Made by a program: the position numbers and the translations under genes | Origin: a virus | Direction: 5' to 3' (one strand) | IMG/VR virus record: IMGVR_UViG_3300026075_000036 | Location: 1 to 23,284 of that record | Length of the DNA: 23,284 nt | Notes under the pieces: generated by a model | The model's input: only the letters and a program-made list of their open reading frames with translations | The model's database searches: none | Told to the model about the DNA's origin: nothing | Part shown: piece by piece, positions 1 to 17,121 of the stretch | Numbering within the stretch: the first letter of the stretch is position 1 | Layout of the letters: every line of letters begins with the position of its first letter

Positions 1-1145
1 GTGACCGTTCCGTTTCCCGTCCCATTCGTGCTGGAAAACGTAACCCAAGTTACGGGGCTTGATGCTGTCCAAGCGCAGCCACTGATCGTGCTGACAACTA
101 TGTTGCTGCTTCCGCCAGCCGAGGTGAACGACCCGGATGAAGGAGCTATTGAATAGCTGCACGCAACCACGCCTGCTTGCGTGACGGTGAAGGTTTGACC
201 CGCCGCCGTAATTGTCCCAACCCTTTGATTGCTGTTCGTATTTGCGGCCAGGACATACGTAATCGTGCCGCTGCCAGTCCCGCTGCTACCCGATGAAATG
301 GTTATCCAAGAGCCGTTTGGAGTGGCGTTCCATGTGCAGGTGGTTCCTGTAGTCATCGCTACAGTATTGGTGACGCTATTAGCTGGCGCGTTGGTGCTGG
401 TGGGAAACAGGGCATAAGTGCAGGCGGGGGCTGCTGCTTGATCGATAGTGACCGTTGCACCAGCAATCGTCATCGTCCCGACGCGAGCGGTTAACGCAGT
501 GTTCGCCGTGACGGAATAGGTTACTGTCCCGGTCCCGGTGCCAGTGCTTCCAGAGGTAATCGTAATGAATGAATCATTCGACGCGGCAGACCATGAGCAA
601 CCAGTCGTTGTGGTAACGGTTACGGTGCCGGAACCAGCCAAATTGCTAAATGATTTGCTCGTTGGATTGACGCTGTACGAGCAAGGCCCGCTTCCAACGC
701 CTATAGCCAAACGTATCTTTCCGCCTGCCCCGTTATACCCGCCAACCAGAATCACATAGGGGATGCCGGAGATTGCATTGAAATTGACGACGCTCGTGAA
801 AGCACCGTTGCCTGAGTCATCATTCTCAGCAATCGAAGTCAGAGCGCCAAGGGCCGTCCCGGTGAACACCCCGAGCAGCGTGTCAAAGCTGCTGCCTGCC
901 GTGCTGACTGTCACCGGGCCGGTAAAAGGAGCAGTCCACGAATACCAGACTGAGCGGCTTACGACATCGCCTGCAATGGTTGGCTCAAGAGCCTGAGTCG
1001 TGGCGGAAGCATTCCTGTCTGCGATACTGATAGAGCCGCTGGAAACAAGTGCAGTGCGGTTGGCGAAATCATCGTTGGCTGGAGGTGGAGCAGCAGCGAA
1101 GGTCGAGAGCGCCAAAAGCGGTAAGAGGCAAAGGAGGTTTTTCAT
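1..1145 (-). CDS. Secreted PPC-domain plus BACON-repeat adhesin-like protein (C-terminus cut by window edge)
   Basis: This frame is open from the ATG at 1145 to the left window edge, about 381 codons with no stop, so the gene is partial. Residues 1 to about 19 form a Sec signal (MKNLLCLLPLLALSTFAAA). Residues about 24-150 match the pre-peptidase C-terminal (PPC) type beta domain common in secreted PVC-group proteins: ANDDFANRTAL, SVWYSWTAP, SSFDTLLGVFTG, then a beta-rich end. From about 155 there are three BACON-like repeats of roughly 86 residues. They begin CSYSVNPTS, CTYALFPTS and CSYSIAPSS, and each carries a second Cys and a Trp (GCSWSA, TCTWNA, GCAWTA) followed by a GTGxGT strand. BACON domains are generally thought to bind carbohydrate or mucin; the role here is inferred to be adhesion. 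The ATG shares one base with the upstream stop (TGATG). What follows the third repeat is unknown. Confidence 0.85.
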   Translation of the reverse strand, partial: MKNLLCLLPLLALSTFAAAPPPANDDFANRTALVSSGSISIADRNASATTQALEPTIAGDVVSRSVWYSWTAPFTGPVTVSTAGSSFDTLLGVFTGTALGALTSIAENDDSGNGAFTSVVNFNAISGIPYVILVGGYNGAGGKIRLAIGVGSGPCSYSVNPTSKSFSNLAGSGTVTVTTTTGCSWSAASNDSFITITSGSTGTGTGTVTYSVTANTALTARVGTMTIAGATVTIDQAAAPACTYALFPTSTNAPANSVTNTVAMTTGTTCTWNATPNGSWITISSGSSGTGSGTITYVLAANTNSNQRVGTITAAGQTFTVTQAGVVACSYSIAPSSGSFTSAGGSSNIVVSTISGCAWTASSPVTWVTFSSTNGTGNGTV

Positions 1146-2008
1146 CAGTTCGATTGCGACACTTCGCATTGTTTAGGTTTCATCGTGTCGTTGCATTCTG
1201 AATGAAACGTATCGGGTTCTGACCTAAACCATCGCGGGCCTTGCGAGTTCCAGTTGTTAGTGACCGGGGAATACCCCCATCCAAATCGTTTTCCGCATTT
1301 GCAGCATCGACTAAAGGCCCACCGCTTGAATTGCTGTAGAGGATGACACTGAAACTGCCAATGCCAAAAATGCCACTTGGGATGTTTCCACCAAGGACGG
1401 CGCTCGGTCAGAATGCTCCGTGCGACATTGCAAAGAATGCCTTCGAAATGATGCTGACGGTCATCGGCAGAGTCCTTTTGGGAATTGGTGTGGTAACCGG
1501 GCAGGAAGCAAAATGCGCCACCGTATTTACTTCCCGACTCTCGAACGTGTGTTGCTTCCGTGGCATATCGAGCCGCTTCTTCGTAAGTGACCTTAAGGCG
1601 CAGAACGCGGCCAACCAGCAACACAAGACCTCGATAAAGCGATTCGACTTCGACATGGTTCCCGTCCCATTCTTTTTTGGCACAGCAAAGAAAGTGCGGG
1701 TATTGACCCTCGCACCATGCGGCATTGTGTAACACTTCACGCTGCTTTTTGGTGAGTTTTATGTAGGAATATCCGCAGGAGTCATCTGAACCATCGCGTT
1801 CAGGATCGACGTGCCAGATTGTGATAAAAGTGTCCCTGTAGCCTTCCATCCAGAACGAATCGCACTTTGAACGCTGGGCATCAGTCATCTTTTTCCACGC
1901 CTGTTTCTTAGCCCAAGAATTGGGATCACTGCGAAATCGTTTCGGCCAAGGCCGATAACGATACCAAGGATATTTGATCTCGTGAGCTACTGTCATTGGA
2001 TCATGCAT
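1145..2008 (-). CDS. Trp/Cys-rich conserved phage protein of unknown function (287 aa)
   Basis: The frame is open further upstream, but I choose the ATG at 2008 because it follows the preceding stop by four bases and has GGAAAGGA about eight bases ahead. The protein is very rich in Trp, Cys and His. Conserved-looking blocks are an N-terminal HDPMTVAHEIKYPW, a middle EGYRDTFITIWHVDPERDGS followed by DDSCGYS, and a C-terminal RRPWWKHPKWHFWHW leading to SRCCKCGKRFGWGY. CxxCG plus a later HSEC could bind zinc. I recognise this as a type of uncharacterised protein seen in many environmental and gut phages, from memory only, and I assign no function. It directly precedes the PPC/BACON gene with a one-base stop/start overlap, so the two are probably co-translated. 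Confidence 0.75.
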   Translation of the reverse strand: MHDPMTVAHEIKYPWYRYRPWPKRFRSDPNSWAKKQAWKKMTDAQRSKCDSFWMEGYRDTFITIWHVDPERDGSDDSCGYSYIKLTKKQREVLHNAAWCEGQYPHFLCCAKKEWDGNHVEVESLYRGLVLLVGRVLRLKVTYEEAARYATEATHVRESGSKYGGAFCFLPGYHTNSQKDSADDRQHHFEGILCNVARSILTERRPWWKHPKWHFWHWQFQCHPLQQFKRWAFSRCCKCGKRFGWGYSPVTNNWNSQGPRWFRSEPDTFHSECNDTMKPKQCEVSQSN

Positions 2009-2012
2009 GACG

Positions 2013-2261
2013 TTATCCTTTCCAATCTTCTGGAGGCTCAAGTTTATCTGCGATCTGGATGGCAATATCCTCTGCTTGCGATTGCTCGATAAATTCCTGG
2101 CAAAGACCACGACGGGCGTACCAGTTCCCAGATCCCCGCTTCTGGCTTCGGCTCTTGCCATCTGACGACAAGAACGTGCCAACGACCTGCACGGCATCGT
2201 AAATCTCAGATAATGCGCTGACGTGCTTATCGAGGATCTGCATTCTTTGTTCGTCGGTCAT
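2013..2261 (-). CDS. Small phage protein, unknown function (82 aa)
   Basis: The ATG is at 2261 and the stop is four bases before the next gene. The N-terminus is helical (MQILDKHVSALSEIYDAVQ). The middle is basic with the phrase GSGNWYARRGLCQEF, a short motif I associate with small unannotated proteins in other phage structural regions. The acidic tail ends EPPEDWKG. There is no membrane segment or signal. No Shine-Dalgarno sequence is visible. On the minus strand the bases before the start instead hold two near-identical tandem copies, CTATCAATTG and CTATCAAATTG, with unknown meaning. The position between a 62-residue and a 287-residue protein suggests a three-gene cassette. Confidence 0.65.
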   Translation of the reverse strand: MTDEQRMQILDKHVSALSEIYDAVQVVGTFLSSDGKSRSQKRGSGNWYARRGLCQEFIEQSQAEDIAIQIADKLEPPEDWKG

Positions 2262-2288
2262 ATCAATTTGATAGCAATTGATAGTAAA

Positions 2289-2477
2289 TTAATAATACTC
2301 TGCCGCCGCATATTTGGCCGTCAGCACTTCGGGCTTTGCATTTACGGCTGTGCCTTTTGGAACAGCTACGACTGAGCCGTCAGGCTGGATCTGAATGTCG
2401 AGCGGTTCGCCGCTGGCCAATATCCTTTCCAGTTCTTCGATAGTCGGCCTTGGTTTCGGTTCGGATTCTAATGCCAT
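2289..2477 (-). CDS. Small phage protein with PTIEELERIL motif (62 aa)
   Basis: This short gene encodes an acidic, non-secreted protein. A helix PTIEELERILASGE is followed by a beta-like PLDIQIQPDGSV and a flexible tail ending AAAEYY. The IEELE...I.PDGSV pattern resembles small conserved proteins in other phage late regions, but no function is known to me. The start at 2477 has no clear ribosome-binding site. A six-codon reading frame (MAFLWH, start 2488) ends across this start codon, which might place ribosomes there, or it may be chance. The gene lies 25 bases after the spike-like gene and 27 before the 82-residue gene. Confidence 0.6.
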   Translation of the reverse strand: MALESEPKPRPTIEELERILASGEPLDIQIQPDGSVVAVPKGTAVNAKPEVLTAKYAAAEYY

Positions 2478-2502
2478 AAGAATGCCATTGTTATTCGTCG
2501 TT

Positions 2503-3690
2503 CTAAAACCAGTTCACTCCATTCCAAAAATACATGACGCTTGGCGGATCTAGATCGTACGCCAAGGCCGCACTCACCACCGGCACATCGACGGGCAAGA
2601 CCCCGCCATAGTTGCCAGAGTAAACCTCTTTCGTTAACGTTGACACACTTAATCCCTCTTTTTCGCTGGCAAGAAGCCGTCCTCCCGTTTTCCAAATGGC
2701 AAGTCGATTGACAACCCCGACGCCCCAATCATTCGTAACTTGCTGAGAATCCCCAGTGGCGTAGCGATAGCGATCGTAGGCGCTATTAATGATAAGTGAG
2801 AAGTTGCCGGTGTTGGTAACGGTCAGATTGACGTTGTGAGCATCCGGCCACGTCAGCATGTTGAGCGTTGAATCGCAGGTCAGAAGCAAGTTGAATTCGT
2901 CTCCAGATCCCGCATCAACGTCCAACGGGCCGCATACGGCCCCAAGTTCGATTGTGCGGGTTGTCGATCCGCCGTTGAATACAATGTTCGTCAGATTGAG
3001 ATTGGTCGAGAGCGTGATGTTCGTGCCGTTGATCGTGAACTGGTCCCCGAAATTGAAAACGTTGCCCACGGGTTGCCATGTGATGTTGTTGGAGCCATCA
3101 TTAACGAACACGCTTCCCGGTACGCCCTGAACCGTCGGCATGCGATAGGCAAATCCGTTGATCGAGTAAATGAAGTTGCTGCTCGTATCCGTATAAATGT
3201 TCAATCCGTTCAGCGTGCCGACTTGGAGATATTTCTGATTCGCCTTGAGCGTCGGAGGGGTTAGCGCCTGGATATATTGTAACGAGTTCGACACACCGCG
3301 CAGGTTGGAGACGTAGATCGCGTACCCCTTGGCAATCCCTGCTGCGATGGTTGCGGTGATGAGTGCGTTGTCGGGTGCGGTCCCGCTGCCAGTTGCCCCA
3401 CCCCATCGCAGATCGAAAGGGCCGCTGAACTTGCGGTCGTAGGACCACGCAGCATCAGCAGTTGAAGCGATGCGAAAGATGTTGTCAGCGCCAACGACAG
3501 AGTTGGTGATCGTGAACAATCCGCCCCCGCCGTCATCTTCAGTGTTATAGCCACGGACGAAGATCGACTTGTTCAACCCGCCGACGAGTCGCGTCTTGAG
3601 CGCTGCGACAGTGGGAATCTCTTCGACAAATCGTTGAGCAAATAGCGGTAGGCAGGCGAACAGGATTAGGAGGCTGATGACCGTTTTCAT
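2503..3690 (-). CDS. Sec-signalled tail-spike-like structural protein (395 aa)
   Basis: The ATG at 3690 overlaps the stop of the giant gene upstream as ATGA and has AAGGAAAAG ahead of it, so I prefer it to an in-frame start ten codons earlier. Residues 1-19 form a clear Sec signal (MKTVISLLILFACLPLFAQ). The mature N-terminus contains FVRGYNTEDDGGGGLFTI, the VxGY...DGGGGLF signature found at the start of many phage tail spikes and pectate-lyase-fold proteins. A long Asn/Thr/Gly-rich beta region follows. The C-terminus ends PPSVMYFWNGVNWF, like the YxWNGxxW ends of phage fibre proteins. No catalytic domain is visible. Inferred role: receptor-binding or surface-exposed appendage. An export signal on such a protein is unusual, because phage virions assemble in the cytoplasm. 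Confidence 0.75.
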   Translation of the reverse strand: MKTVISLLILFACLPLFAQRFVEEIPTVAALKTRLVGGLNKSIFVRGYNTEDDGGGGLFTITNSVVGADNIFRIASTADAAWSYDRKFSGPFDLRWGGATGSGTAPDNALITATIAAGIAKGYAIYVSNLRGVSNSLQYIQALTPPTLKANQKYLQVGTLNGLNIYTDTSSNFIYSINGFAYRMPTVQGVPGSVFVNDGSNNITWQPVGNVFNFGDQFTINGTNITLSTNLNLTNIVFNGGSTTRTIELGAVCGPLDVDAGSGDEFNLLLTCDSTLNMLTWPDAHNVNLTVTNTGNFSLIINSAYDRYRYATGDSQQVTNDWGVGVVNRLAIWKTGGRLLASEKEGLSVSTLTKEVYSGNYGGVLPVDVPVVSAALAYDLDPPSVMYFWNGVNWF

Positions 3691-6600
3691 GGTTTCTTTT
3701 CCTTCGAATGCTTTCGCCACACTTCAAAGAATCTTGCCGCTATTAGCTTTCTTTCTTCGATAGCGTCGGTGAACACTTTGCGTTCGTGTTGAGATAGCGA
3801 TTCCAGCAACTTCTGATCGTTGGCCTTGCTTCCCGTGAATGGGCGTTTCGGATAGTTGCGGAAGTATTCAAGTATGTCTGGTGCCTTCTTGAGTTTTTCG
3901 AGCTTGGTCAACTCCTTATCCGCGCGCACGAGGTCCGCGCTTTCGAGCGCCCGATGCAACTGGTGATAGTCGCTCTCGCCGATAAATTGAATCTGCGGCT
4001 TTTTGCCCTGAGCATCGTTGAAGGTCTTGACGAATTCGCGCACCTGAGTCTCAGCGGTGAACCTGCGATTCGTGATGCCGATGGCTCCAAGGAAGCTCTC
4101 CCACCAATAGCGCTCTTTGTCACTTCGGAAGCTAATTGGAATAATGGTTTGGGCCTCATCCTGAAGTTGCTCCAAGGCGTTTCTCGGTCGCCCAAACGTG
4201 TCCTTGCCAGTGACAAACTCGACTATCGCGCGAGTGTAAATTGGATTGAGCCGGTTGCGCGTGTATTTCCCCGGCTCGTTAATAAGGTGCCAAATATCAG
4301 CCGCCACATTGCGCAGGGAATATTCGTGGCCTTTATACATTAGCGAGAATGGATGCTTCCATTCGTAGTCGTCATTGACCGCCTTATTTGCGATCCTAGC
4401 AATCGTCCACAATCCAACCGCGCCCAGCGCGAGCGCCATTCTCTGTTCGCCGCCGTAACGAGTTGCAGCCTGTGCCGGAAATCGGATGCGTGCTTCGCCA
4501 AAGTCAGGTGCTAGGAACGTCGCCCGCAGCATATCCTGAAAGGTTGGGTGCCGGTACATCGCCCGATAATTCTGTTCACCGAACGCCGCGTTGCTCTCGC
4601 GGGCCGTGAGTCTAACCATTTGTTCACGAGTCACCTTGCCAGCCTTGATGTCCTTATCGTATCGAGCGAGATTGCGTTCCAAGGCGTGCAGGGCCATCGT
4701 CATTTTGACTTGCGGGATGTAGTCCTTGAAAAGCCAATCGTTAGCTGCGGTTAGCCATTTGCCGACGATGGGTATTTTCTCAGTCAAACCAACACCTCCG
4801 ACACCTTCGCTGAAAAGCTGGCTGGCGTGATGATCTGCTACCATCAATCCGCCTTCGATCAATTCAGCCTGTGCTGGGTCTTTGAAGTTAATCTCGGTCA
4901 GCTTGAATGGGCTAACCTTGTGTTCCAGCGCGTGAGTCGTGATTTGCACTGGATGAAACGCGGATATGGAAAGCATCGTCTGCTTAACAACCGAACTGGG
5001 GACAAGGATCGCGCGACCTATTTTGCGTCGGCTGAACCATGAACGGTCGAAAAGCGCACGGAACTTCCTGGCATATTCTGGGTGAACCGCCAGCGTGCCT
5101 TCCACCATAATTGGCTTCCCGGCTTCGTCCGCTGTAGCCCATACCCATTTTCGGAACGCCGGATGATCGAACGCAACGTAATCGCCGCGATAATCCAAAG
5201 GTGAATCGCCTCCCTTTATAGAGTGCGGCTTTACCATGTAAGCCGAAACATCGCCACTATCTTTATCGAGAACGCGATCCCCTCTGCCTTGCGTATCTAT
5301 TACGGGACGCTCGTCAGATGCCTTCAACTCGTACGCCTGCTTCACGAATGCCCGTGCCGCCATTGCGCGATTGAATCCCTGATCGTAATGCAGGATTCGC
5401 GCGGCGAGATTCTTCACGGGCTTCAATCCCGCCTGCTCTGCTTCAAAGTCAGTCGCGTAAAAGCGCTTTTTGAATCCCTCGAAATTCGTTCGGAATTTGC
5501 CTGAGTTTATCTCGGCAAGAATAGAATTGGCCTGCGGACTATCGGCTTCGTAAAAGCGATGGATGTAGTTCTCGACGCCTCCCTCCAAAGCGCCAGCCTT
5601 GATCGCCTGCTGCAATCGCTGCTCGAAGTAATATTTCACTTCATCAGCAAGGCGCTTTTGGTCCTCGGTGAGCTTCATGGCGTCCTCGTAGCCCTTTTTG
5701 TATCGGGCCTTAGACGCTGCTGCACGTTCAGCAAGAACTGACACATCGCCTTCCGCCTCGATGTAATTCGTAAGAGCTTCGAGTGTGTCGGCGCGTGGAA
5801 ACTTTTCTCTTACCACCTTGGCGAACAGTCGTGAGTTGTGGCTAAGTTCCTGATCCGCTAGATTCCACTTTCCGACAGGTCGATCCAAATCCTCGACCTT
5901 CGGCGCGGAGACGATGTGATTTTTGACCCATGCGGCTCCTGCTCTGGCCGTCCCGATAGCGCGCTCAAAATTGTCCTTGGTCCCTTCAGCCATTTTCGAT
6001 ACCCAATCTTCAAGCTGCTCGTGCAATGGAACCTTCGGCTCAGCCGGCAGTGTTTTTATGGCATCGCTGACACGCTGGAGCGGGTCGATGTTGGATTCTC
6101 CAAGGCCGACATCGGCGGGACGGGCCGCGCCGGGGCCGGTTGGAAGTTCCGGCTTTGCAGGCTCGGCGATCGCTGGCGCTTCTACTTTTGGAACTTCCGT
6201 CCTAGCTCCGTGTGCGCGTTGGGCTCGAACTTCGGCTAAGCCGGGTGCTGTTGAAAGTTCTCCAAGACCTTGAGCCTCACTTCTTCTATCGAAAAATGGA
6301 TTTACCCTTGGTGCTTCGCGTTCCGAAACTGATTTGGCCAGCCGTCGCATCTCATTTCCGAGCTTTATTACCGCTGCTTGGTATTGAGGTTCGGCTTCAT
6401 CTCGCACGAGCTTTGAAATTTTCTGCGCCTGAGAGTAGTCAAGCATTGCGCGCGCTTCTGATTTCTCCAGTCCGTAAGCTGAGGCAGCATAGTCGGCAGC
6501 GAAATCCATCACTTTTTCGGGTGTCAATTGTCTTGCTTCGTCCAATGGCAAGGTTGTCATCTCCATTTCTATTTCATCGGAGATGGCATTCTGTGTGGGA

Positions 6601-7766
6601 TCAAGAAATCGTCGAGCTGCCTTTACGTCAACTTCAGTTGCCTCACCTTTCATCATTCTTGTAAGTGCAATTATTCCTTCTTCGGTTTCCTTGGGATTAT
6701 AAATTTTAAGTTTCTTTTCTGATGCAATCTTCACTTGCTTAACGAGGTCTGCGGCGGCTTCTGCTACTTCATCCACAATAGGGTCACTGTTAAATTCATC
6801 CAGAAAATCATTGGGTGACTCCCGCAAATCTCGAAGATAAATACGATCTTGGCGTAGCGTGTCTGCTCGCTGGTTTAGAATATCTTGGTGCGTAGGTTCT
6901 CCAACACGTTCAAGCCCTTGAGTCTCGCTCTGACGATCAAAAAAGGGGGCAATTCCGGGCCGATTCCCAGAATAATTTGGAGCTACTGTCGTGCTGATAC
7001 TGCTGGCATTTGGTGCTCCTTCCTGTATTACGTTACCTAGTGCTTCTGAAGTTCTAGGAATTAAAATCTCTGGTGCTTTTATGGTAGCGGATCTGCGCGA
7101 TAACTCAGCCATTCCAGCATTCAGAATTGTCTCGCCTATCGCCTTGCCGCGTTCCTCCGGTGTTTTGGACTTAAAAATATCGCTTAAGCCCTTAATGGTT
7201 CCGATGGTTCCCAATGTCCCAAACACTAGCGGAGCCATTGGGCCAGCCACGGCGATTTGCTCCAGCCCTTGCTCGGTGAACACGGATTCAAGCCCTGCGC
7301 TGATCGCCGTAGCCATTCCTTTGGCGACCTTGAGGCGGTCTGGGTCGCTGGCAAATATCTCAGGCTTCGGTAGCGACAGGATGGGCTTACTGGAAGTGTC
7401 TCCGAGAACGACTGTGCCGTGAGACACGCCAGTTCTCAGGATGTCAGCTTGCGCTGCTGCGCCCTCCGTGAGCGGCGAAGCGGTTGTCTCTGGTATTGCG
7501 GAAGCGGCGGCTGGAGTTGGTTTGGCAAACAATCGATCAAAGGCTTGAGATGCTGGAACGCTCGGTTCCGGCGTTGGCGCGACTGCTGGCGCTGGTGTTT
7601 CCTGCACGGACTTGTTGAGCGCCTGCAACGCATCGAATTCCTCTTTGAAATCAGGTTGCTCCAAATAGGCGGGATATTTCCTCCCGATGGCATCAATTAG
7701 AGTGTCGCGGTTTACCTCTTTGTAAACCGGGTACTTCTCCAACAGTTTGTTCATCACTTCGCTCAT
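3687..7766 (-). CDS. Giant internal-virion / polyvalent-type protein (1359 aa)
   Basis: This is the largest gene in the window. It starts at ATG 7766, overlapping the upstream stop as ATGA. Residues 1-55 are helical with a repeated KYP motif (LLEKYPVYKEV, IGRKYPAYLEQ). About 56-120 is a Pro/Ala linker. A hydrophobic Gly/Ala stretch follows near 165-205. A PFFDRxSExQGL motif occurs twice, at about 274 and 490, bracketing a helical segment. Long helices run to about 760. Around 920-940 is AILVPSSVVKQTMLSISAFHPVQ, a pattern reminiscent of large polyvalent phage proteins. The last 350 residues are charged and helical. Size, coiled-coil character and position after the tail genes fit an ejected internal virion protein like those of podoviruses. 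No enzymatic motif is evident, so the role is inferred. Confidence 0.7.
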   Translation of the reverse strand: MSEVMNKLLEKYPVYKEVNRDTLIDAIGRKYPAYLEQPDFKEEFDALQALNKSVQETPAPAVAPTPEPSVPASQAFDRLFAKPTPAAASAIPETTASPLTEGAAAQADILRTGVSHGTVVLGDTSSKPILSLPKPEIFASDPDRLKVAKGMATAISAGLESVFTEQGLEQIAVAGPMAPLVFGTLGTIGTIKGLSDIFKSKTPEERGKAIGETILNAGMAELSRRSATIKAPEILIPRTSEALGNVIQEGAPNASSISTTVAPNYSGNRPGIAPFFDRQSETQGLERVGEPTHQDILNQRADTLRQDRIYLRDLRESPNDFLDEFNSDPIVDEVAEAAADLVKQVKIASEKKLKIYNPKETEEGIIALTRMMKGEATEVDVKAARRFLDPTQNAISDEIEMEMTTLPLDEARQLTPEKVMDFAADYAASAYGLEKSEARAMLDYSQAQKISKLVRDEAEPQYQAAVIKLGNEMRRLAKSVSEREAPRVNPFFDRRSEAQGLGELSTAPGLAEVRAQRAHGARTEVPKVEAPAIAEPAKPELPTGPGAARPADVGLGESNIDPLQRVSDAIKTLPAEPKVPLHEQLEDWVSKMAEGTKDNFERAIGTARAGAAWVKNHIVSAPKVEDLDRPVGKWNLADQELSHNSRLFAKVVREKFPRADTLEALTNYIEAEGDVSVLAERAAASKARYKKGYEDAMKLTEDQKRLADEVKYYFEQRLQQAIKAGALEGGVENYIHRFYEADSPQANSILAEINSGKFRTNFEGFKKRFYATDFEAEQAGLKPVKNLAARILHYDQGFNRAMAARAFVKQAYELKASDERPVIDTQGRGDRVLDKDSGDVSAYMVKPHSIKGGDSPLDYRGDYVAFDHPAFRKWVWATADEAGKPIMVEGTLAVHPEYARKFRALFDRSWFSRRKIGRAILVPSSVVKQTMLSISAFHPVQITTHALEHKVSPFKLTEINFKDPAQAELIEGGLMVADHHASQLFSEGVGGVGLTEKIPIVGKWLTAANDWLFKDYIPQVKMTMALHALERNLARYDKDIKAGKVTREQMVRLTARESNAAFGEQNYRAMYRHPTFQDMLRATFLAPDFGEARIRFPAQAATRYGGEQRMALALGAVGLWTIARIANKAVNDDYEWKHPFSLMYKGHEYSLRNVAADIWHLINEPGKYTRNRLNPIYTRAIVEFVTGKDTFGRPRNALEQLQDEAQTIIPISFRSDKERYWWESFLGAIGITNRRFTAETQVREFVKTFNDAQGKKPQIQFIGESDYHQLHRALESADLVRADKELTKLEKLKKAPDILEYFRNYPKRPFTGSKANDQKLLESLSQHERKVFTDAIEERKLIAARFFEVWRKHSKEKKP
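6243..6947 (-). repeat. Duplicated PFFDRxSExQGL motif bracketing a lower-GC segment inside the giant gene
   Basis: Two related stretches of the 1359-residue gene lie 216 codons apart. Copy one is at 6894-6947 (PFFDRQSETQGLERVGEP) and copy two at 6243-6299 (PFFDRRSEAQGLGELSTAP). Ten of the first twelve residues match, and the DNA is also alignable. The rows from about 6340 to 7080 are mostly 30-50% GC by hand count, against roughly 55-75% in rows checked on either side. This pattern would fit insertion or duplication of a module by recombination, but it could also be a short functional motif used twice. Confidence 0.55.
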
Positions 7767-8548
7767 TGGGGAAACAAGATTCCGATTGGGTCTTTGGGAT
7801 TTACGGGACGCGATTCACCCTTCGGAAGCGCGATGAAATCGTCATAGATTTTACGCAACGCCGGGGCTGCTTCTTCTGGCGTCTTGCCAGTGCTGCGAAC
7901 GTAAGTGCCGAGTGACCGATTGAAAAACTCGTCCCATGTGACTTCCTTGCCGCGATTCAGCAGCAGTCTATTCTGTCGAAGAATTTCGCGCTCGGCCTTC
8001 GCTTCGTTGTTTGTAATCGCAAGCTCATTCCTTGCGATGATGGCGGCATCCAATCTTTCCTTGGCGGCTTGAATTTGAGCGTCGGAAATTGATTGTCGTG
8101 TTGCCAGCGTTTCTCGGACAGATTCAAGTCTTGCGTCCGTCGCCGCCTGTTTCGCGCTGTAAATCTGAGCACCGCGAACACTTCCCTCGATGAGTTGCAA
8201 AGCTTGCGGATCGACGTTCCCGCCCTTCTCAGCAATCTTGCCGTATAACTGGCTTACGGACGCCGGATTGTCCCACTGGGTTTGCCCTATCTGCCCCCAA
8301 ATATCTGCACTCGCTGCCTGAATGTTGAGCGCGGTGGAAATCTTTTCCTGCTTGATCTGATGATCCAGCGCTTCATTCGCCAACCGCGCCTGCATCTCCT
8401 GCTGCCTCAGCGGTAGCAATGACTTCTCAATGTCGAGCTGTTGTTGCCGCTGTTTCAGTTGAAACGCCTCGGCAAGGCTCATCGGCTGATTGCTGTCGGG
8501 CCGTTGCTGCAACCATGCGGGTTCGTAGTTGAGGTTGAGTTCAGCCAT
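7763..8548 (-). CDS. Coiled-coil internal virion-like protein (261 aa)
   Basis: The gene starts at ATG 8548, sharing a base with the upstream stop (TAATG), and its own stop overlaps the giant gene (ATGA). Residues about 22-75 are Gln/Leu/Glu-rich with heptad character (LAEAFQLKQRQQQLDIEK onward). A second long helical stretch runs about 130-195, with many Ala, Arg and Glu. No signal peptide, membrane segment or enzyme motif is present. Together with the Gly-rich 274-residue protein before it and the giant after it, the layout resembles internal core or DNA-ejection proteins. It might instead be a chaperone or scaffold for the giant protein. No family was recognised with confidence. Confidence 0.65.
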   Translation of the reverse strand: MAELNLNYEPAWLQQRPDSNQPMSLAEAFQLKQRQQQLDIEKSLLPLRQQEMQARLANEALDHQIKQEKISTALNIQAASADIWGQIGQTQWDNPASVSQLYGKIAEKGGNVDPQALQLIEGSVRGAQIYSAKQAATDARLESVRETLATRQSISDAQIQAAKERLDAAIIARNELAITNNEAKAEREILRQNRLLLNRGKEVTWDEFFNRSLGTYVRSTGKTPEEAAPALRKIYDDFIALPKGESRPVNPKDPIGILFPQ

Positions 8549-9372
8549 TACCGCCAGTTATTTAGTTCGCCGGGATAAAACCCCGTATCGAAATTGCTGC
8601 CGCCACTTACAACGTCCCTCGTGGCAGGCGTCATATCCTGCGCGGTCAATCCGCCGCCCATCATACTTGTCATCCCACCGCCGCCACCTAGCGCACCGCC
8701 AAGCCCCATCGTCGCCGCGCTCGCCAGTGTTCCCTCAACCCAATCGGTCAATCCGGCCAAGCCGTGCTCAAGCCTGCTTCCGCTCGCAGCGACCTTGGCT
8801 TTGTAGAGGTTGTAGTTGAACCGATTGTTGCGTTCCTCGACCGCAAAACCGATCTGCTGCTGCGGACTAATGAACATTGAGGTTGCATCGGCTAGGCGTG
8901 GAAGGCGAGAACTTGCCGACTGTAACCAGCGCTCGGACGATGACAAGCCTTCACGAATCAAATCCAGAGAGGCCAGTCCAAGGCTCTCAGCTTCGGCAGC
9001 TCCAGCCACACCTGATCCACCGTAGCCACCGGCAAACGACCTCGCCCCACGCGAACGCTGAATCTGCCGCTGGACATCCTCAGGCAACTCACCTTTGAGC
9101 AGAGACGTGATCTGCTTACTGCCCGTCTGCATGATCTCGTCATAGCCGGGGATCGCCGCCTTGAGCATGTCCTGCAACTGCTGGAAGTTGAACTTGTTGA
9201 TCCCTGCGGCAAGCTGCGTAGCTTCTGGCAGTGCGGCAATGTTCCCCGAGATCGCCTTCTTCTGTTCCGTCTGCGCGCTGATTTCTGGCAGATCGGGGAT
9301 GTATCCAAGAAAGTCGCTCGTCCCGTAAGCGGGAGTTAATCCCAGTGCATTGCCTAAAACATTGGCTGACAT
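8548..9372 (-). CDS. Internal virion-like protein with Gly/Met-rich C-terminal region (274 aa)
   Basis: The ATG at 9372 lies one base after the upstream stop. Residues about 30-110 are helical (ISAQTEQKKAISGNIAAL, FNFQQLQDMLKAAIPGYDEI). Near 170-200 is ATSMFISPQQQIGFAVEERN, which resembles the SPxQQ...xExN segment I associate with uncharacterised virion-associated phage proteins. From about 215 comes a small hydrophobic, Gly/Met-rich stretch (LASAATMGLGGALGGGGG) that could insert in a membrane or oligomerise. The end is polar (YPGELNNWR). The mix of helices with a glidobactin-like Gly stretch and the position among tail and giant genes suggest a head-internal or ejection role, which is inferred only. 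Confidence 0.6.
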   Translation of the reverse strand: MSANVLGNALGLTPAYGTSDFLGYIPDLPEISAQTEQKKAISGNIAALPEATQLAAGINKFNFQQLQDMLKAAIPGYDEIMQTGSKQITSLLKGELPEDVQRQIQRSRGARSFAGGYGGSGVAGAAEAESLGLASLDLIREGLSSSERWLQSASSRLPRLADATSMFISPQQQIGFAVEERNNRFNYNLYKAKVAASGSRLEHGLAGLTDWVEGTLASAATMGLGGALGGGGGMTSMMGGGLTAQDMTPATRDVVSGGSNFDTGFYPGELNNWR

Positions 9373-9373
9373 A

Positions 9374-10420
9374 TCAGGTGAAATTCTCGATGTATCCCGC
9401 GCCCCACAACGCCGGGTCTTGCATGCGCGGCGTGGCTACTGGGCCGTCGCCGTTGAAGTTGGCTAATTCCTCTTCAAGTAGATTTATCGCTCCACCCCTG
9501 CGCGATGGTGTCCCGTATTCGTTCGTCACCGCGCCCTCGATAAGCCGCATCGCGTTGTCGTACTGCCCGTTCTCTTCCTCAAGAATGCCTTGCACGCAGA
9601 GCTTGAGCGCTTGGAGGTTGCCGATGATCAGATAGTCAGTATCACGCGCCACGGGAATGAAAGCCATCTTGACCAGCAAATCGACGGTGTGCAGGTCGCA
9701 ATCGTTGTCACACTCGTTGTTCGTAGGAGAATCAGGCAAGCCGGGAATCAGATAGCGTCGATACTGAGGCAGCGTTTCGTCTGGTTCGTAAACGGCCAAT
9801 GCATTCACGTTGGCCATGCTCGGCACGTCGTACGAGTAAAGACGAATGTTGCCGTTGGTGACGGGCTTCTGCACGCCGGTCAAGCTGCTGAAGTAATTGA
9901 CGGTGATTTGAAATGTCGTGCTCAAGGGCACGCGCTCACCGTCAATCCACGTTCCGTCTGGAAGCTGCGTCAGAATCCAATTCGAGTTTTCGTCAAAGCC
10001 TTGAAGCAGGATGTAAGCGTCAGGGTCTTCGTCCAAATCACTGTAAACTTTTATCTTCTGCGTTCGGCTGCTCATCTCATCGAATGCCACGGCAAGGCCG
10101 CGAGTAATGAGCGTGTTGCCAGGGCAGTCGCCTTCGCCCAAGATGCCGTAGGAAGTCCCTTGGAACTCGAAGAATTCGTTGCGGATCATGCCTGGGCAAG
10201 AACAAAGCGCAAATCCCTCGACCGTCTCGAAATGTCTCGGAAGCGTGATGCAGGCAGAATTGATGCACGTTCGGTAGCGCTGAAATGTCCCCTTCCACTT
10301 GCCGCGCGGAAGCAGGCGCTGGACAGCTTCGTTGAGATAGGCGGGAACTTTATCGCTAGTCGCGCAAACCCCAAGAACCTTGGCAATGGTCGGCCTTGCC
10401 GCGCCTAATGTGAGTCTCAT
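9374..10420 (-). CDS. Neck/tail-tube candidate protein, Cys-rich (348 aa)
   Basis: I use the ATG at 10420, which forms TGATG with the upstream stop; an in-frame TTG one codon earlier is less likely. The N-terminal region has YLNEAVQRLLPRGKWKGTFQRYR, a pattern seen in phage head-tail or tail-tube proteins where a helix precedes a GxWxGT strand. Next come CINSACITLPRHFETVEGFALCSCPG, NEFFEF and a central beta-rich part. The C-terminus is helical (LQALKLCVQGILEEENGQYDNAMRLIEGAV) and ends in WGAGYIENFT. About ten cysteines are present, some in pairs (CSC, CDNDC). Its gene is near the gp12-like gene and before the internal proteins, so I infer an adaptor or tail-tubular role comparable with T7 gp11, with low certainty. 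Confidence 0.6.
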   Translation of the reverse strand: MRLTLGAARPTIAKVLGVCATSDKVPAYLNEAVQRLLPRGKWKGTFQRYRTCINSACITLPRHFETVEGFALCSCPGMIRNEFFEFQGTSYGILGEGDCPGNTLITRGLAVAFDEMSSRTQKIKVYSDLDEDPDAYILLQGFDENSNWILTQLPDGTWIDGERVPLSTTFQITVNYFSSLTGVQKPVTNGNIRLYSYDVPSMANVNALAVYEPDETLPQYRRYLIPGLPDSPTNNECDNDCDLHTVDLLVKMAFIPVARDTDYLIIGNLQALKLCVQGILEEENGQYDNAMRLIEGAVTNEYGTPSRRGGAINLLEEELANFNGDGPVATPRMQDPALWGAGYIENFT

Positions 10421-11220
10421 CAAACTGTATAGTAAGCCCGCGCCGTCCGCTTTACGACATATACCGCAACGTAAGGCGGCATGTTCTCGTGTGGCTTTGA
10501 ATCCACCGGAGGCGTGGCCGAAGTATCCCCGCCTGCGTTAGCCAGCGTCGTGTTGATCGGAACTTCCTGTGTGGCAACCCCGGCCAATCCATCATTGTTC
10601 GGATATACGTTCCCGGTCCCGGCACCACCTGCCGGATCGCTCCCCCAGATTTTATTGGCAGGTTTCCCGGCCTGTTCCTCAGCCTGTGGCGTATGCGTAT
10701 GCGGGAACATTTCCTCGAGCGTCAGCTTCACCTGATCCAGTCCACCCGTATCGCCCACGGCCAGAACTATCGTTGAAACTGGAAGCGTTCCCACGCCGAC
10801 AATCGTTCGCGCGGCAAATGCCGTGTCTTGTTCCCAGAAACTTCCAGTGACTTGCGTTGGAGGCGTCACAGTCGGATCGATACCATCGCCGCCGTCGAAG
10901 GCGTAAAGGTTGGCCAAGGTGCCAACCCAAATCTGCCGCATATCGGACGATGCAGGAACGGGATGTTTCTTCGTCCACCTGCCATAGCCAAAGGTCCACG
11001 TTCCAAGATCACCGCCAGAAACGTCGGTGCGTATCCACGGCTTCCCCTGGTCGTCCACGCCGGGGATGTCGGGGCCGTAATTGAATCCGATGCCTAGACT
11101 GCCGGGAATGGTTCCGAATGCTCCCGTGAAAATATCTATCACGAGTTGCCCCCAAGAACTGAAACAGTAACCTGGGGGTAAGCTTCCCGGTGTCAGCGGA
11201 ATGGTTGTTGGCATTGGCAT
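10420..11220 (-). CDS. Tail-collar / short-fibre-like protein (266 aa)
   Basis: The ATG at 11220 shares its A with the upstream stop (TAATG). The N-terminal third is Gly/Pro-rich (PLTPGSLPPGYCF, IPGSLGIGFNYGPDIPG). The C-terminal part has a collar-type layout: a Gly-Asp turn (VGDTGGLDQVKLTLEEM), an HTHT metal-type motif at about 196, a long loop, and the ending HENMPPYVAVYVVKRTARA. That last phrase is the hallmark of phage tail-collar and short-tail-fibre tips, HxNxPPYxAxxYxxR. In T4-like short fibres, His pairs in an HxH arrangement bind iron. The neighbours are tail proteins. Likely role: trimeric receptor-binding or collar fibre at the tail. Confidence 0.75.
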   Translation of the reverse strand: MPMPTTIPLTPGSLPPGYCFSSWGQLVIDIFTGAFGTIPGSLGIGFNYGPDIPGVDDQGKPWIRTDVSGGDLGTWTFGYGRWTKKHPVPASSDMRQIWVGTLANLYAFDGGDGIDPTVTPPTQVTGSFWEQDTAFAARTIVGVGTLPVSTIVLAVGDTGGLDQVKLTLEEMFPHTHTPQAEEQAGKPANKIWGSDPAGGAGTGNVYPNNDGLAGVATQEVPINTTLANAGGDTSATPPVDSKPHENMPPYVAVYVVKRTARAYYTV

Positions 11221-13031
11221 TATTCGCTGGAATACGTAAACGGATTAACATCGCAGCCAGTAACTGACTGGCACGGCCCCTCGCCTCTGCACTCTCCAAG
11301 CGGAGACTCATCAACCCAATGTACGTGAAGCAGAAGGCGTTTTATTCTACAGTACCCCTCGATCGTCTGTCTCACCTGAAACTCGAATCCCAAGTCAAAC
11401 GGCTTATCCACATCTGCTTCGCATGAATCGGGAGGCTTGGGAAAGCGCATGTCTGGTCTGTACTGGAGCCGATGCTGAAGCGGTCCCGTTTGAGGCTGTC
11501 CGCACGGAGGTGTTGCACAGTCCTGAAAGGTTGAGCATTCGCTCCAAGCTGTCCAGTCCAGCCACAGCGGATAGGAGTCCGGTCGAAATTGGAGATTAAA
11601 CGTGACCTGTCCATAAAGTTCATCAACCGATTGCTGGCCGGTCATAAGCCGCTTGAGTCCCAGCCCCTGATCGCTGAACCGCAGAGAACGGTCCTCGTGT
11701 GACCACACAATTCGCTTGGATTGATTGTCCTGCTTGTCCGCACGGCTCAATTCCCAAAGCTCAATCTTGTTGGCATTCGACAGCGTGAACATGAAGCAGC
11801 GCTCGGTCTTGTTCACGGTCGCTGTCAGGATTTGGAGTATCTTCAAGCCCGTCCACACGCCATTCCAGGCCGGAGGTGATTGCCGCCCGATGCCAGCCAC
11901 AGTCGAGAAATCAAGGGCAGTAAGTCCACGGAAATAGGTGCCGTGCGTTGTCCAGACGGGGCTTAAGGTTGTGAGTAACCTGTTATCAAAGTTTACCGAG
12001 CTTCCGTGGTTTAGCGTGGCTTGCTGGTCGTACTCGAGGATGGGCCGGATCTCGTCCGACATGCCACTGTTCGACCAAGTGTTCTGCCCGCCAAGTTGGA
12101 AGTTTCTGCGAGCGACGATGAAGCTTCGAATGTCATTGAGCGAACGAAACCACAGGTCGGAATTCACCTGAGACACCGCATTCTGATTCACTGGCCCGGC
12201 GCCAATCATCGAAATAGTTTCAATGGGAAAGGTCACAAGCTTCCAAATTGCGCGATCAATCGGGGCGTTTATCGAGAACGCGTGCGTCTCGGTGAACACC
12301 ATGAGCGGCCCCTGCCCTGTCGAGGTATCCAGCACCGCAATCGGCACAATAGCCGTTATCTGCCCCGCCGAGTCCGGTATCGAGAACGCCCCACCCGTAG
12401 CAAGCAGGTCGTTCTCCGTCATCTTAAGGACCGCATCGCGGTAATTGTAGGTTGCCGTGCCGCTCGGACCATAAACCAGATCGCCAGCAACGAATTGGTG
12501 CCGATCTGGGGAGGCGATCCAAAGTCTGCCCATCACGTATTGGATTATTGTTCCAACTGGAATCTCGTTGGGCGTGGCTCTCCGCGCAGTAGCCCCGTCG
12601 AAGATGTAGGGAGCACTCACGCCGTCCTGCATGATGAAGAATTGCTCGGCTTGCTCCATCCAGGTGAATTCCAGAAGCGATGAATTCGGAGAACCGGCAA
12701 CCGTGATGTCCTGCACCTTGAACTGATTGGCGATGTCGATCTTGAACATGCGTCCGCCGATTGCAGCCATCAGCACATCGTTGCCGGATGCGGTGCGATA
12801 GCGATGCGCTCCCTGAAACTTCCCATCCTCGAAGAGCGCGGAGTCCACGCCGGGGAATCGAAGCGTTCGCTTGTTTACGCCGGGACGAGGTTTTATATAC
12901 CCACCACGCATCTGAGCGTTGACCGCTGCGGCGACTTGCGTTGGCTTGATAAGCGAAGGCGCAAGGCCGGAGTCAACACCCGCTTCAAGCGTTGTAAAAC
13001 CGTCTGTAAGTCTGCGTGGATCTTTAGTCAT
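11220..13031 (-). CDS. gp12-like tail protein, beta-propeller type, Cys-rich C-terminus (603 aa)
   Basis: The frame extends upstream, but the ATG at 13031 has GGAGATAAGT just before it and overlaps the preceding stop by eight bases, so I start there. The N-terminus contains GLAPSLIKPTQVAAAVNAQM then RGGYIKPRPGVNK, followed by blade-like repeats (VLMAAIGGRMFKID, AEQFFIMQDGVSAPYIFDG, MGRLWIASPD). This is the usual layout of podovirus tail proteins that plug the tail tube, such as T7 gp12 and its relatives. The last 110 residues are unusual: eight cysteines in a Pro/Gly-rich setting (SECSTFQDCATPPC, DSC, GYC, GECRGEGPC, TGC), which could bind metal or form disulfides. Expected place: distal tail tube. 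Confidence 0.75.
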   Translation of the reverse strand: MTKDPRRLTDGFTTLEAGVDSGLAPSLIKPTQVAAAVNAQMRGGYIKPRPGVNKRTLRFPGVDSALFEDGKFQGAHRYRTASGNDVLMAAIGGRMFKIDIANQFKVQDITVAGSPNSSLLEFTWMEQAEQFFIMQDGVSAPYIFDGATARRATPNEIPVGTIIQYVMGRLWIASPDRHQFVAGDLVYGPSGTATYNYRDAVLKMTENDLLATGGAFSIPDSAGQITAIVPIAVLDTSTGQGPLMVFTETHAFSINAPIDRAIWKLVTFPIETISMIGAGPVNQNAVSQVNSDLWFRSLNDIRSFIVARRNFQLGGQNTWSNSGMSDEIRPILEYDQQATLNHGSSVNFDNRLLTTLSPVWTTHGTYFRGLTALDFSTVAGIGRQSPPAWNGVWTGLKILQILTATVNKTERCFMFTLSNANKIELWELSRADKQDNQSKRIVWSHEDRSLRFSDQGLGLKRLMTGQQSVDELYGQVTFNLQFRPDSYPLWLDWTAWSECSTFQDCATPPCGQPQTGPLQHRLQYRPDMRFPKPPDSCEADVDKPFDLGFEFQVRQTIEGYCRIKRLLLHVHWVDESPLGECRGEGPCQSVTGCDVNPFTYSSE

Positions 13032-13641
13032 ACTTATCTCCAAAGACCCAAATGTTCGCAGTCGGAATCGGAGGCGCTGCAATCGAAACGCTCAACGAAA
13101 AGTAGATGATCGGCACAACCACAACAGCAGCCAGCGGGTAAGCGTCCAGCGTGAGCGCTTTCCAGTCCACAACCGTTACCAGCGTGTTGTATGTCTGTGC
13201 TGCCCCTACGATGACATTCCCCGTCTTGAGCGGCCCCGTGTAGATTCCGCCAGAGGGAGCAATCGTGCTGAAATCCATGCTCGGGCTTTCCACGATAATG
13301 TCCGTAATCCGGCAACGGCTGGACGAAAGGGCTATTGGCTGATCTGCATTCGTGTTGAACACGGCCCCGATAAGTGAGCCGAGCATTCCCCGCCGCGGCA
13401 GATAAATAGCCGTAGGGACGCCAGCCGGACCTGTGGGGCCTGCCGGACCGACCGCACCTGCGGGACCGGCAACGCCAGGAACTCCCTGCGGTCCTGCCGG
13501 CCCTGGCGCACCATCAGCACCTATCGGCCCCGTAGGGCCGGGAGGCCCGACACCGATCGGCCCCTCAGGTCCAGTAGGCGTGAGCTTGGCCCCGCTCGGA
13601 ATCACCGTGCCAGCATCTACGTTGGTTGGATAGGCGCCCAT
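13024..13641 (-). CDS. Collagen-like phage structural protein (205 aa)
   Basis: The ATG at 13641 directly abuts the preceding TAA. Residues about 20-75 are an uninterrupted or nearly uninterrupted Gly-X-Y tract (for example [19 protein letters not shown]), roughly 17 triplets, expected to form a collagen-type trimer. The remaining 130 residues are a hydrophobic beta-type domain with an Arg-rich entry ([16 protein letters not shown]) and the ending [11 protein letters not shown]. Short collagen tracts are common in phage fibres, where they act as trimeric spacers. The C-terminal domain is not recognised. The first collagen-like protein upstream in transcription order is at 19735, so three copies of the same design are spread through one operon. 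Confidence 0.75.
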
Positions 13642-15042
13642 TTATGGAAAGGGGATTTCGATAACGGTTAATCTCACCCATTGAGTTGCTGTGCTGGCAT
13701 CGGTTGCGACAACCAAGAAATCTCCGGGGAAAAGAATCTCCCCCGGAAGGCTCGTAAAAGACTTGTTGGCGGCATTCTTTGTAAACTTAATATTTGTTCC
13801 GCCAGGGGAGCCGCCAGATGGAACCACATAGAAACTCACGGACCTCGTGGTTCCAGACTCATTCATTAAGACAGCAGAAACGCTGGTATCGCCAGCATTA
13901 CTTGGCTCAGTAATTATTGGTGGACTCAAAGCGCATTTGCCTGCGGGACAGGTGTACACAGTATTGTTTCCAACGCTAAGGCTCAACTTTCGCGGAGAAT
14001 ACATCGGTGCGTTGGTCGGGAATAATAACCCCGCCAAAGAGACGTTGGCCCCGTTCAAGGTGGTACTGATAGCAATGCTTTCCCCGGCTTCAAAGAGGAA
14101 ATTATCCCCGGTGTTTCCAATGGCATTGCAAGCACCTGTTGTAGCAGTTCCGTCTATGCTGAATCGAAAATAATTCCCGTTGGTTTTGAGTAAGGCGTAA
14201 TGAGTGATCGTGCTGGCATTTGTAGAAGATATATTAAATGCAGTTAGCATTAAGCGTTTTGCGGCTGGCACCGTGAAGATGTCGTTGGTTCCAAGAGGGA
14301 GATTGCCTGAACGAATATTGGTAGGAGTTATGTTGCTCGCCGTGAATCCGTACTGACTACCGTAATAGACTAATTGAAAATCCGGTCCTGTCTGATTCCC
14401 GTCGCTTCGCACAAATGTTGTGGTGCTCCCGGTGAGTCCTAGCGCATTGGTCATGTGCGCTAGGGTCGCAGCGATGCCGTTAGTCTTGGTTGCATCCACT
14501 GCAAGAAGGCCAGCAGACGCTACGTTGTTTAACACGGTGTCGGTAAGCGCGCCGCCGATGGGAGCGCCGTTGAAAGTCAACGCCGATCCATTATCGGCAA
14601 CCAGATTGGTTTGCCCGCTCAGGGATATGCTGCCTGCCACCGCTTCCAATACGTTGCTGCCATTTATCCGCAACCGGATTGAATACGGTCCGACTGCATC
14701 GAAGGTGAGATTGGTATTCGCCACCACGAATTTGTCTGCATACGCTTGAATCGATTGACCGGCTGCACCAGCCACGGCAAGGTTTAATAGCAAATCGCCA
14801 GTGTCATTCGTGTGGACAATGCTCAGAAATCCCAAGGCCGGATCGTAAAAGAGAGCATTCGCGTACGCGGTGGGAGAGGCGACAAATTTACCGCTCGGAA
14901 AATCGAAGTAGGGAATTGCCCCACCAACGATGTCGGTGTCAAACGTGTTCGTCGTGAAAACGGTTTCTTGAATTGGAACTATCGCAGCGCGGCAATTGAG
15001 CGCCAGCAGTGCGAGTATTAAGATTCTAAATAAGGTGTTCAC
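13642..15042 (-). CDS. Sec-signalled beta-rich structural protein with tandem C-terminal domain (466 aa)
   Basis: I choose the GTG at 15042 because it overlaps the upstream stop as GTGA, like most junctions here; an in-frame ATG at 15060 would add six residues. Either way the N-terminus is a Sec signal (NTLFRILILALLALNCRAA). The body is Asn/Thr/Ser-rich and beta-like, as in phage fibres. Two similar domains lie at the C-terminal end. The first is around 245-345 (GTNDIFTVPAAKRLMLTAFNIS, ending SLAGLLFPTNA); the second is around 350-466 (GNNTVYTCPAGKCALSPPIIT, ending WVRLTVIEIPFP). Both share the NxTV..xPAxK start and a Gly-Glu-hydrophobic strand. The role is inferred as an exposed appendage protein; an exported virion protein would be odd. 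Confidence 0.7.
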   Translation of the reverse strand: MNTLFRILILALLALNCRAAIVPIQETVFTTNTFDTDIVGGAIPYFDFPSGKFVASPTAYANALFYDPALGFLSIVHTNDTGDLLLNLAVAGAAGQSIQAYADKFVVANTNLTFDAVGPYSIRLRINGSNVLEAVAGSISLSGQTNLVADNGSALTFNGAPIGGALTDTVLNNVASAGLLAVDATKTNGIAATLAHMTNALGLTGSTTTFVRSDGNQTGPDFQLVYYGSQYGFTASNITPTNIRSGNLPLGTNDIFTVPAAKRLMLTAFNISSTNASTITHYALLKTNGNYFRFSIDGTATTGACNAIGNTGDNFLFEAGESIAISTTLNGANVSLAGLLFPTNAPMYSPRKLSLSVGNNTVYTCPAGKCALSPPIITEPSNAGDTSVSAVLMNESGTTRSVSFYVVPSGGSPGGTNIKFTKNAANKSFTSLPGEILFPGDFLVVATDASTATQWVRLTVIEIPFP

Positions 15043-15488
15043 GCGATTCTCAATTCCCATCCGGTGTCATTGGTTCCTGCACCAGTCTTGAGCCACACTG
15101 CTCCGACATCATCGTAGAACACGGCAGGACGGGTTGCGGTGACAACGCCGTTTGGGTCGCCAGTCCCGAAAAACACCTGAGCCTCAGTTAGCCCAATGCC
15201 AGTCGCTGCATCGTCGCGCAGATTCAGCAGCGTGAGTGTCGTCGCGTCGGGAATGCCGACAACTTGGAAGTAGCCTGCCAGCGCGAGGTAAATCACGGAA
15301 CCGATAGAAAATACAGACGAATCCTCCACGCTCGCATCTGCGCTGCTGCCTTGTTCGGGAACGGTGAAGTCGCCAGTCAGGATCGTGCTGGCCGAGGCAC
15401 CGTCCGCACCATCAGCGCCGGGAAGCCCATTCGTACCCCTTGGGCCGGGAATCGACGTTGCCAAGCAAACTCTGGTTGGGAGAGCCAT
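15039..15488 (-). CDS. Short collagen-like structural protein (149 aa)
   Basis: The ATG at 15488 directly follows the TAG of the acetyltransferase gene. After a short leader (MALPTRVCLATSI) there are five to six Gly-X-Y triplets (GPRGTNGLPGADGADG), then a beta-type region: DFTVPEQGSSADASVEDSSVF, YLALAGYFQVVGIPDATTLTLLNL. The C-terminus contains AVWLKTGAGTNDTGWELRI, a phrase found in many phage fibre proteins (VWxKTGxGxxxTGW). The pattern of alternating strands suggests a small trimeric fibre or adaptor. The stop overlaps the following gene as GTGA. Confidence 0.7.
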   Translation of the reverse strand: MALPTRVCLATSIPGPRGTNGLPGADGADGASASTILTGDFTVPEQGSSADASVEDSSVFSIGSVIYLALAGYFQVVGIPDATTLTLLNLRDDAATGIGLTEAQVFFGTGDPNGVVTATRPAVFYDDVGAVWLKTGAGTNDTGWELRIA

Positions 15489-15965
15489 CTAAAACGTCCT
15501 TTCAAATGCACGAGCGGGTTCGCATTTCACGCAGGCGTTCGGTTCCACATCGCTCGTGACTATTGCGCCAGCGGCGATCATTGCGCCCTCGCCGATCGTC
15601 ACGCCGGGAAGCAGCACAGCCCCCGCGCCGATCGCCGCTCCATCCTCGATTATCGGAGGCTGGGCATCATAATCCGGGTTGTTCACACGTGGATATTTGT
15701 CATCGGTGGCCACCACACCTGGGCCAACAAAGACATTCTCTCCAATCATACTGAAGGCCGGAAGAAATACGTGTGCTCCAATGCGCGATCCATTTCCGAT
15801 GCGACTTGCCCTTCCAACCTCGGCCCCACAACCAATCGAACACGAACTCCCAATGTGAACGTTATTCTGAATGACCGCATGGTGCCAAATGTAGGTATCT
15901 ACACCAATGCAAACTCCGCGCCCTATGATGGCGGTTGGCGCGATATTTTGTTCAGAGAGATTCAT
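15489..15965 (-). CDS. Left-handed beta-helix sugar acetyltransferase (158 aa, WbpD-like)
   Basis: The ATG at 15965 overlaps the upstream glycosyltransferase stop by 14 bases; an in-frame start 14 codons earlier would overlap it further. Almost the whole protein consists of hexapeptide-repeat units ([IV]GxGxx types such as IGRGVCIGVDTYIW, HIGSSCSIGCGAEVG, IGAGAVLLPGVTIGEGAMI), giving a trimeric beta-helix. TYIWHHAVIQNNVHIG, the central FVGPGVVATDDKYPR, the second block after it and the ending ACVKCEPAR correspond well to the WbpD/WlbB class of nucleotide-sugar N-acetyltransferases. In those enzymes acetyl-CoA is the donor. The substrate here is unknown. With the adjacent glycosyltransferase it probably modifies a glycan, on host or virion. 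Confidence 0.8.
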   Translation of the reverse strand: MNLSEQNIAPTAIIGRGVCIGVDTYIWHHAVIQNNVHIGSSCSIGCGAEVGRASRIGNGSRIGAHVFLPAFSMIGENVFVGPGVVATDDKYPRVNNPDYDAQPPIIEDGAAIGAGAVLLPGVTIGEGAMIAAGAIVTSDVEPNACVKCEPARAFERTF

Positions 15966-16917: not shown

Positions 16918-17121
16918 TTAAGCGTTTAACTTTGCAATAATTTCCTTGGCCATTGGCCCAGGTTCCCAATCATCATGTTCCCAAGACCATTTGCCGACTT
17001 TGCACTTTGGCCGTTCGTCCAGTTTTGCAATGTGTGTTTCTTCCGGGCGCTTCCAGATGTGTTGTGTTGGCGGATCGCCTTCGCCATCGAAATCAAAGAC
17101 AATGTAATAGTTGGCGTTCAT
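16918..17121 (-). CDS. Small acidic/Trp-containing protein, unknown (67 aa)
   Basis: The ATG at 17121 overlaps the fibre stop as ATGA, and the TAA abuts the glycosyltransferase start, so the gene lies tightly inside the coupled chain. The N-terminus is strand-like (NANYYIVFDFDGEGDPP), the middle alternates charged and Trp residues (HIWKRPEETH, GKWSWEHDDWEPG) and the end is a short Lys-rich helix. No signal or membrane segment is seen. I do not recognise it. Its placement between fibre and glycosyltransferase suggests a fibre-assembly or glycosylation accessory role, but that is a guess. Confidence 0.55.
   Translation of the reverse strand: MNANYYIVFDFDGEGDPPTQHIWKRPEETHIAKLDERPKCKVGKWSWEHDDWEPGPMAKEIIAKLNA

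Follow-up and report, generated by a model that had tools for sequence, protein, structure and literature searches.

The spike-type, fibre-type and BACON/beta-propeller proteins described here are encoded in a cassette of late genes shared across a clade of uncultured soil phages, and the products of this cassette would be exported by the Sec pathway, cleaved by signal peptidase and most likely act outside the virion, a reading to which a probability of about 0.55 is assigned. The cassette proteins are built from receptor-binding modules of tail fibres and tailspikes together with glycan-binding or glycan-cutting domains. The window, that is, the whole stretch of 23,284 nucleotides analysed, is an entire IMG/VR record and a linear fragment; almost all of its genes are read from the minus strand and make up a late-type operon. 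The features on which the argument rests are as follows.

1..1145, minus strand: BACON/beta-propeller protein, 5' part (381 of ~1373 codons), running to the contig end.
1089..1145, minus strand: Sec signal of the BACON protein, 17-19 residues.
2503..3690, minus strand: spike-type protein of 395 residues, with a conserved N-terminal domain (residues 19-215) and a variable C-terminal part.
3637..3690, minus strand: Sec signal of the spike, 18 residues, expected cleavage between LFA and QRF, kept in relatives.
3687..7766, minus strand: 1359-residue protein without a signal, its stop overlapping the spike start.
13642..15042, minus strand: fibre-type (beta-rich) protein of 466 residues with a GTG start, a conserved N-terminal part to about residue 165 and a C-terminal tandem beta-sandwich.
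14986..15042, minus strand: Sec signal of the fibre, 19 residues, expected cleavage between CRA and AIV, kept in relatives.
15039..15488, minus strand: collagen-like protein without a signal, its stop overlapping the fibre start.

Signals were called with a rule-based scorer (charged n-region, 9-residue h-region and the -3/-1 rule), which accepted 5 of 1245 internal-methionine pseudo-N-termini (0.4%) and 1.0% of shuffled N-termini. Among the minus-strand ORFs of at least 100 residues in the window, the spike, the fibre and the BACON protein pass and no others do; two further passes are plus-strand shadow ORFs. All three proteins show the charged n-region, h-region and small residues at -3 and -1 of a Sec/signal peptidase I signal, the spike beginning MKTVISLLILFACLPLFA before QRF, the fibre VNTLFRILILALLALNCRA before AIV and the BACON protein MKNLLCLLPLLALSTFAAA. 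Each of these starts overlaps the preceding stop: the spike ATG at 3690 overlaps the stop of the 1359-residue ORF (ATGA), the fibre GTG at 15042 overlaps that of the collagen-like ORF (GTGA) and the BACON protein starts at a TGATG junction at 1145. Since the start codons overlap preceding stops, the starts are well placed and false signals arising from wrong start codons are ruled out. The initial annotation had assigned Sec signals to these three proteins and had placed them in coupled operons; both statements are borne out, and the extent of the signals is wider than was claimed. The region 2503-15042 also contains ~10 kb of tail and internal-protein genes without signals, among them the 1359-residue protein, which is probably an internal virion protein as judged by its size and place and which gave no match in a family search.

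The tail protein, spike, fibre and terminase served as queries for finding relatives, whose gene calls are longest ORFs and whose contigs are mostly fragments. A Sec signal is present in every homologue with an available N-terminus, the spike signal being kept in G001, G002, G003, G005, G007 and L003 and the fibre signal in G002, G004, G005, G006, G400 and L004, where cleavage is expected between CRA and Gln. Homologues starting after the signal region, which would speak against export, were searched for and none was found; the one candidate (G001 31796-33151) was rejected because its signal begins at codon 82. Between the window and G005 the Sec signal is identical at 17 of 17 residues and 47 of 51 nucleotides, with silent changes only. 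More distant relatives retain 57-62% identity in the mature domains while the signals are nearly wholly replaced: the window spike matches G001 at 4/16 signal residues and 107/180 mature-domain residues, and G007 at 5/17 and 103/179, and the window fibre matches G006 at 3/18 and 72/116. The diverged signals nevertheless stay signals, and Ala or Gly precedes Gln in most of them. Under simulated unconstrained drift a scoring signal survived 20 substitutions in 1.3-2% of trials and 25 substitutions in 0.6%. At the level of sequence comparison, the signals are real and under selection. Because the hydrophobic character, the charged n-region and the small residue before Gln are kept and the sequence is not, the N-termini behave as generic export signals and not as docking peptides.

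In the relatives, the spike gene is the first in a run of overlapping genes, translationally coupled and with signals, for proteins of spike, BACON/beta-propeller, LamG lectin, beta-helix, glycoside hydrolase (GH)-like and fibre-like type. In G002 the run comprises a spike (398 residues), a BACON protein (1373), a fibre-like protein (779), a small lipoprotein-like gene and a beta-helix protein open at the contig end; in G001, a spike (1759), a 499-residue protein, a GH-like protein (825), a 139-residue protein with a signal seen by eye that falls below the scorer cut and a beta-helix protein (837); in G007, a spike (1247), a LamG lectin (253; match E 1e-22), a 154-residue protein and a beta-helix protein (828). 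The GH39-like and Y_Y_Y matches are weak, and the GH-like and beta-helix matches lie below Pfam's own cut-offs. The three window proteins are members of this larger cassette, the rest of which is cut off by the fragment. The 499-residue protein belongs to the downstream cassette in G001 but is found beside the fibre in G002, a shift of place which indicates that modules move between appendage loci and keep their signals. The scorer is positive for 25 of 32 genes in appendage loci and for 4 of 178 elsewhere, a count that is descriptive and not a test since the loci were drawn knowing the signals. Three of the four outside positives are small lipoprotein-like genes; the outside count would become 5 because the true start of a 370-residue signal-bearing fibre close to the capsid gene of G001 lies 82 codons inside its ORF. 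None of the clade's head, tail-tube and packaging proteins carries a signal.

Several further features of these contigs were observed. Near the G001 capsid gene, a 110-residue protein (L020:15175-15507; G001 35165-35497, minus strand) begins MNRRNFLKNSALALFGF, a Tat-like signal, and gave no match in a Pfam search. Compared with G003, in which the flanking proteins are ~99% identical, the window (1145-2480) has ~1.1 kb extra between the spike and BACON genes, an indel between close relatives that holds a Cys-rich ORF (287-350 residues) and a 62-residue ORF near an 82-residue homologue of a 74-residue G003 gene. Sugar-modifying genes lie inside the structural operon of the window (15489-16917 and 22671-23282), namely a hexapeptide transferase, a weak glycosyltransferase family 4 match and a methyltransferase matching CmcI/rhamnosyl O-methyltransferase; G001 likewise carries glycosyltransferase genes, and these enzymes may act on virion or host glycans.

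The tailspike character of the spike family is apparent through its G001 member. The only family match of the window spike is PHROG_17640 (E 0.085); the signal-bearing G001 spike, the largest of the spikes, matches tail-spike family PHROG_4636 (E 1.4e-19) and holds genuine tailspike/fibre modules that occur in Escherichia, Klebsiella, Acinetobacter, Pseudomonas, Gordonia and other phages. The predicted spike structure (pLDDT 37) provides no usable model. The window fibre is identified as a fibre through fold match only: its model (pLDDT 51 overall) is usable in the C-terminal half, a tandem beta-sandwich with folds that match, at the low confidence of the model, phage fibre-like and virion proteins. 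Matches of the fibre to PDB entries at TM 0.1-0.2 were discarded as meaningless, and a sequence search against solved structures gave no match. A 766-residue signal-less fibre is encoded elsewhere in the window (17118-19418); its start resembles Mtd_N, its repeats (xADSKAVSDS...) are long and degenerate, and its end is rich in glycine. The BACON protein is full-length in L012 and L013 (1373 residues), where it contains eight BACON stretches, one Big_7 and one beta-propeller (SBBP) match; BACON (PF13004) and viral BACON_2 (PF19190) exceed the Pfam cut-off. Cysteines occur as one pair per repeat in the BACON repeats only, and Cys content was dropped as a marker of extracytoplasmic folding since it is not discriminating. 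A match to a Leptospira phage beta-propeller was set aside as not relevant.

Outside the clade, appendage-type genes lack signals in the sister contigs G397 and G398, which have terminase identities of 40 and 37% and tail-protein E values of 2.3e-64 and 1.9e-123, respectively. They also lack them in a prophage-like region that turned up in one Verrucomicrobiota genome of the 388 scanned, where the tail protein matches at E 5.5e-27. The appendage signals look like a derived trait of the clade. In the prophage-like region (L071; G200:C3, ~120000-147000), a 2130-residue protein follows the tail genes without a signal-bearing cassette. In G398 (L086, ~5300-8600), dense simple repeats give rise to several copies of ORFs with Ser/Arg and Ala/Gly/Val repeats; these may represent a variable repeat cassette or be artefactual.

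The host is likely to be a member of the Verrucomicrobiota, on the basis of the tail-protein match in one of the 388 genomes, which is thin evidence alone, together with the N-terminal domain of the BACON protein, which resembles bacterial surface proteins mostly of this phylum. The tail protein was absent in three other phyla (385, 382 and 388 genomes), a genome scan with tail-protein patterns gave no match, and no relatives of the capsid, tail protein, spike or fibre were found among 50,697 phage records.

Because the signals are real, conserved and absent from comparator tail appendages, export of the three proteins, as the initial annotation had suggested, is well supported by these comparisons. 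The spike, fibre and sugar-binding proteins would probably leave the cytoplasm of the infected cell during virus production. In the proposed mechanism, the cassette proteins would be made late in infection together with the virion proteins, exported by host Sec and relieved of their signals by signal peptidase, and would fold in the periplasm to form a pool that is freed with the progeny at lysis. The freed proteins would then most likely occupy receptors and bind or cut surface and surrounding polysaccharide, sparing the progeny from being trapped on the dying cell or on its debris and matrix. Inspection of the C-termini by eye recognised no outer-membrane secretion or anchoring signal; residence in the periplasm until lysis, rather than at the cell surface, is therefore the default expectation, and action on the cell surface before lysis is doubtful.

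Alternatively, the spike and fibre could belong to the virion itself: after export they would stay in the periplasm and be attached only once lysis brings the compartments together. This is possible if rather less probable. Both proteins combine a conserved N-terminal domain with a variable C-terminal part, the layout of docking tail fibres, and their overlapping genes keep fixed places in the late structural operon. These features fit virion docking rather than free action, as do the tailspike modules of the G001 spike, and in vitro P22 tailspikes can join heads that are already complete. The fibre also has a structural neighbour with which it appears to travel. The last ~48 residues of the collagen-like protein (GDPNGVV...GTNDTGWELRIA) resemble a common tailspike end-module, and in a second lineage (G004 and G400) the gene before the signal-bearing fibre ends in this shared 48-residue module; the arrangement suggests that the fibre was exchanged between lineages along with its signal. 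The other structural proteins of G004 and G400, however, gave no match to those of the clade, and a fibre N-terminus common to two such lineages is awkward for a virion-specific dock; in addition, the lectin, GH-like and BACON neighbours look like free secreted proteins and a partial literature search found no precedent for docking after lysis. Free action is somewhat likelier than docking because of these glycan-type partners and the fibre N-terminus common to two virion lineages. The fuller proposal, a tail finished outside the cytoplasm with Sec-exported spikes and fibres that mature in the periplasm and bind virions only at lysis, is unlikely; if true, such completion would keep progeny from sticking to their own host before release.

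The hydrophobic N-termini might instead serve as assembly or virion-anchoring elements, or as membrane-active peptides, of tails built in the cytoplasm. Every other tail gene of the operon encodes a cytoplasmic protein and the comparator appendages assemble in the cytoplasm; a specific dock, however, would not be expected to keep its signal character while losing its sequence, as generic Sec signals would, and the same type of N-terminus is found on unrelated BACON, LamG, beta-helix and GH-like proteins with secreted bacterial relatives, making this explanation improbable. Capture of host genes or chimeric contigs, to which the bacterial resemblance of the BACON N-terminal domain might point, is largely refuted and very improbable given that independent contigs hold the same genes at the same places, that the starts are coupled and changes in close relatives silent only, and that the spike N-terminal domain is absent from the 388 Verrucomicrobiota genomes.

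Sec signals on spike, fibre, lectin and glycan-type genes would mean either that the envelope and its surroundings are targeted, as in the preferred reading of action outside the virion, or that virions are finished after lysis; both outcomes would matter for superinfection, for the release of progeny and for host range. The clade also opens a view of phages of the Verrucomicrobiota, its inferred host.

The usual view is that the receptor-binding proteins of tailed phages are assembled in the cytoplasm, and the expectation in the initial annotation that tail parts normally lack signals holds for the isolates: of the isolate phage proteins that bear the tailspike modules of the G001 spike, eight were read and all eight are signal-less, whereas every available clade homologue carries a signal. 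Such tailspikes and fibres, among them those of Escherichia phage Gally (P22-like tailspike), IME11, Klebsiella K38PH09C2 and Acinetobacter D0, have modules in common with the G001 spike, including the end-module GSGSPEG...GNTGW. Like the clade proteins, they pair a conserved N-terminal with a variable C-terminal part and are encoded in the late operon. No tailed phage with Sec-exported fibres or spikes came up in a literature search whose coverage was partial, so that this is weak evidence of novelty. BACON-domain proteins occur in crAss-like gut phages; those of gut phages and bacteria have BACON/BACON_2 domains in common with the clade protein, which combines them with a Verrucomicrobiota-type N-terminal domain, a beta-propeller and a Sec signal, the signal having been read in the clade only. 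Lom, Bor, Cor and Llp are exported phage proteins of the host envelope for which receptor blocking is one proposed role; they are small outer-membrane proteins or lipoproteins, whereas the clade proteins are large, of tailspike-module type and encoded in the late structural operon. Signal-peptide endolysins such as Lys44 of Oenococcus phage fOg44 are exported through the host Sec pathway and lose their signal by cleavage (PMC6116005). These are lysis enzymes, in contrast to the clade proteins with their receptor- and glycan-binding modules, and searches of Pfam and PHROG found no endolysin (peptidoglycan-cutting) domain in the three proteins. The clade would represent tailspike-type proteins with a predicted export route that known tailspikes lack.
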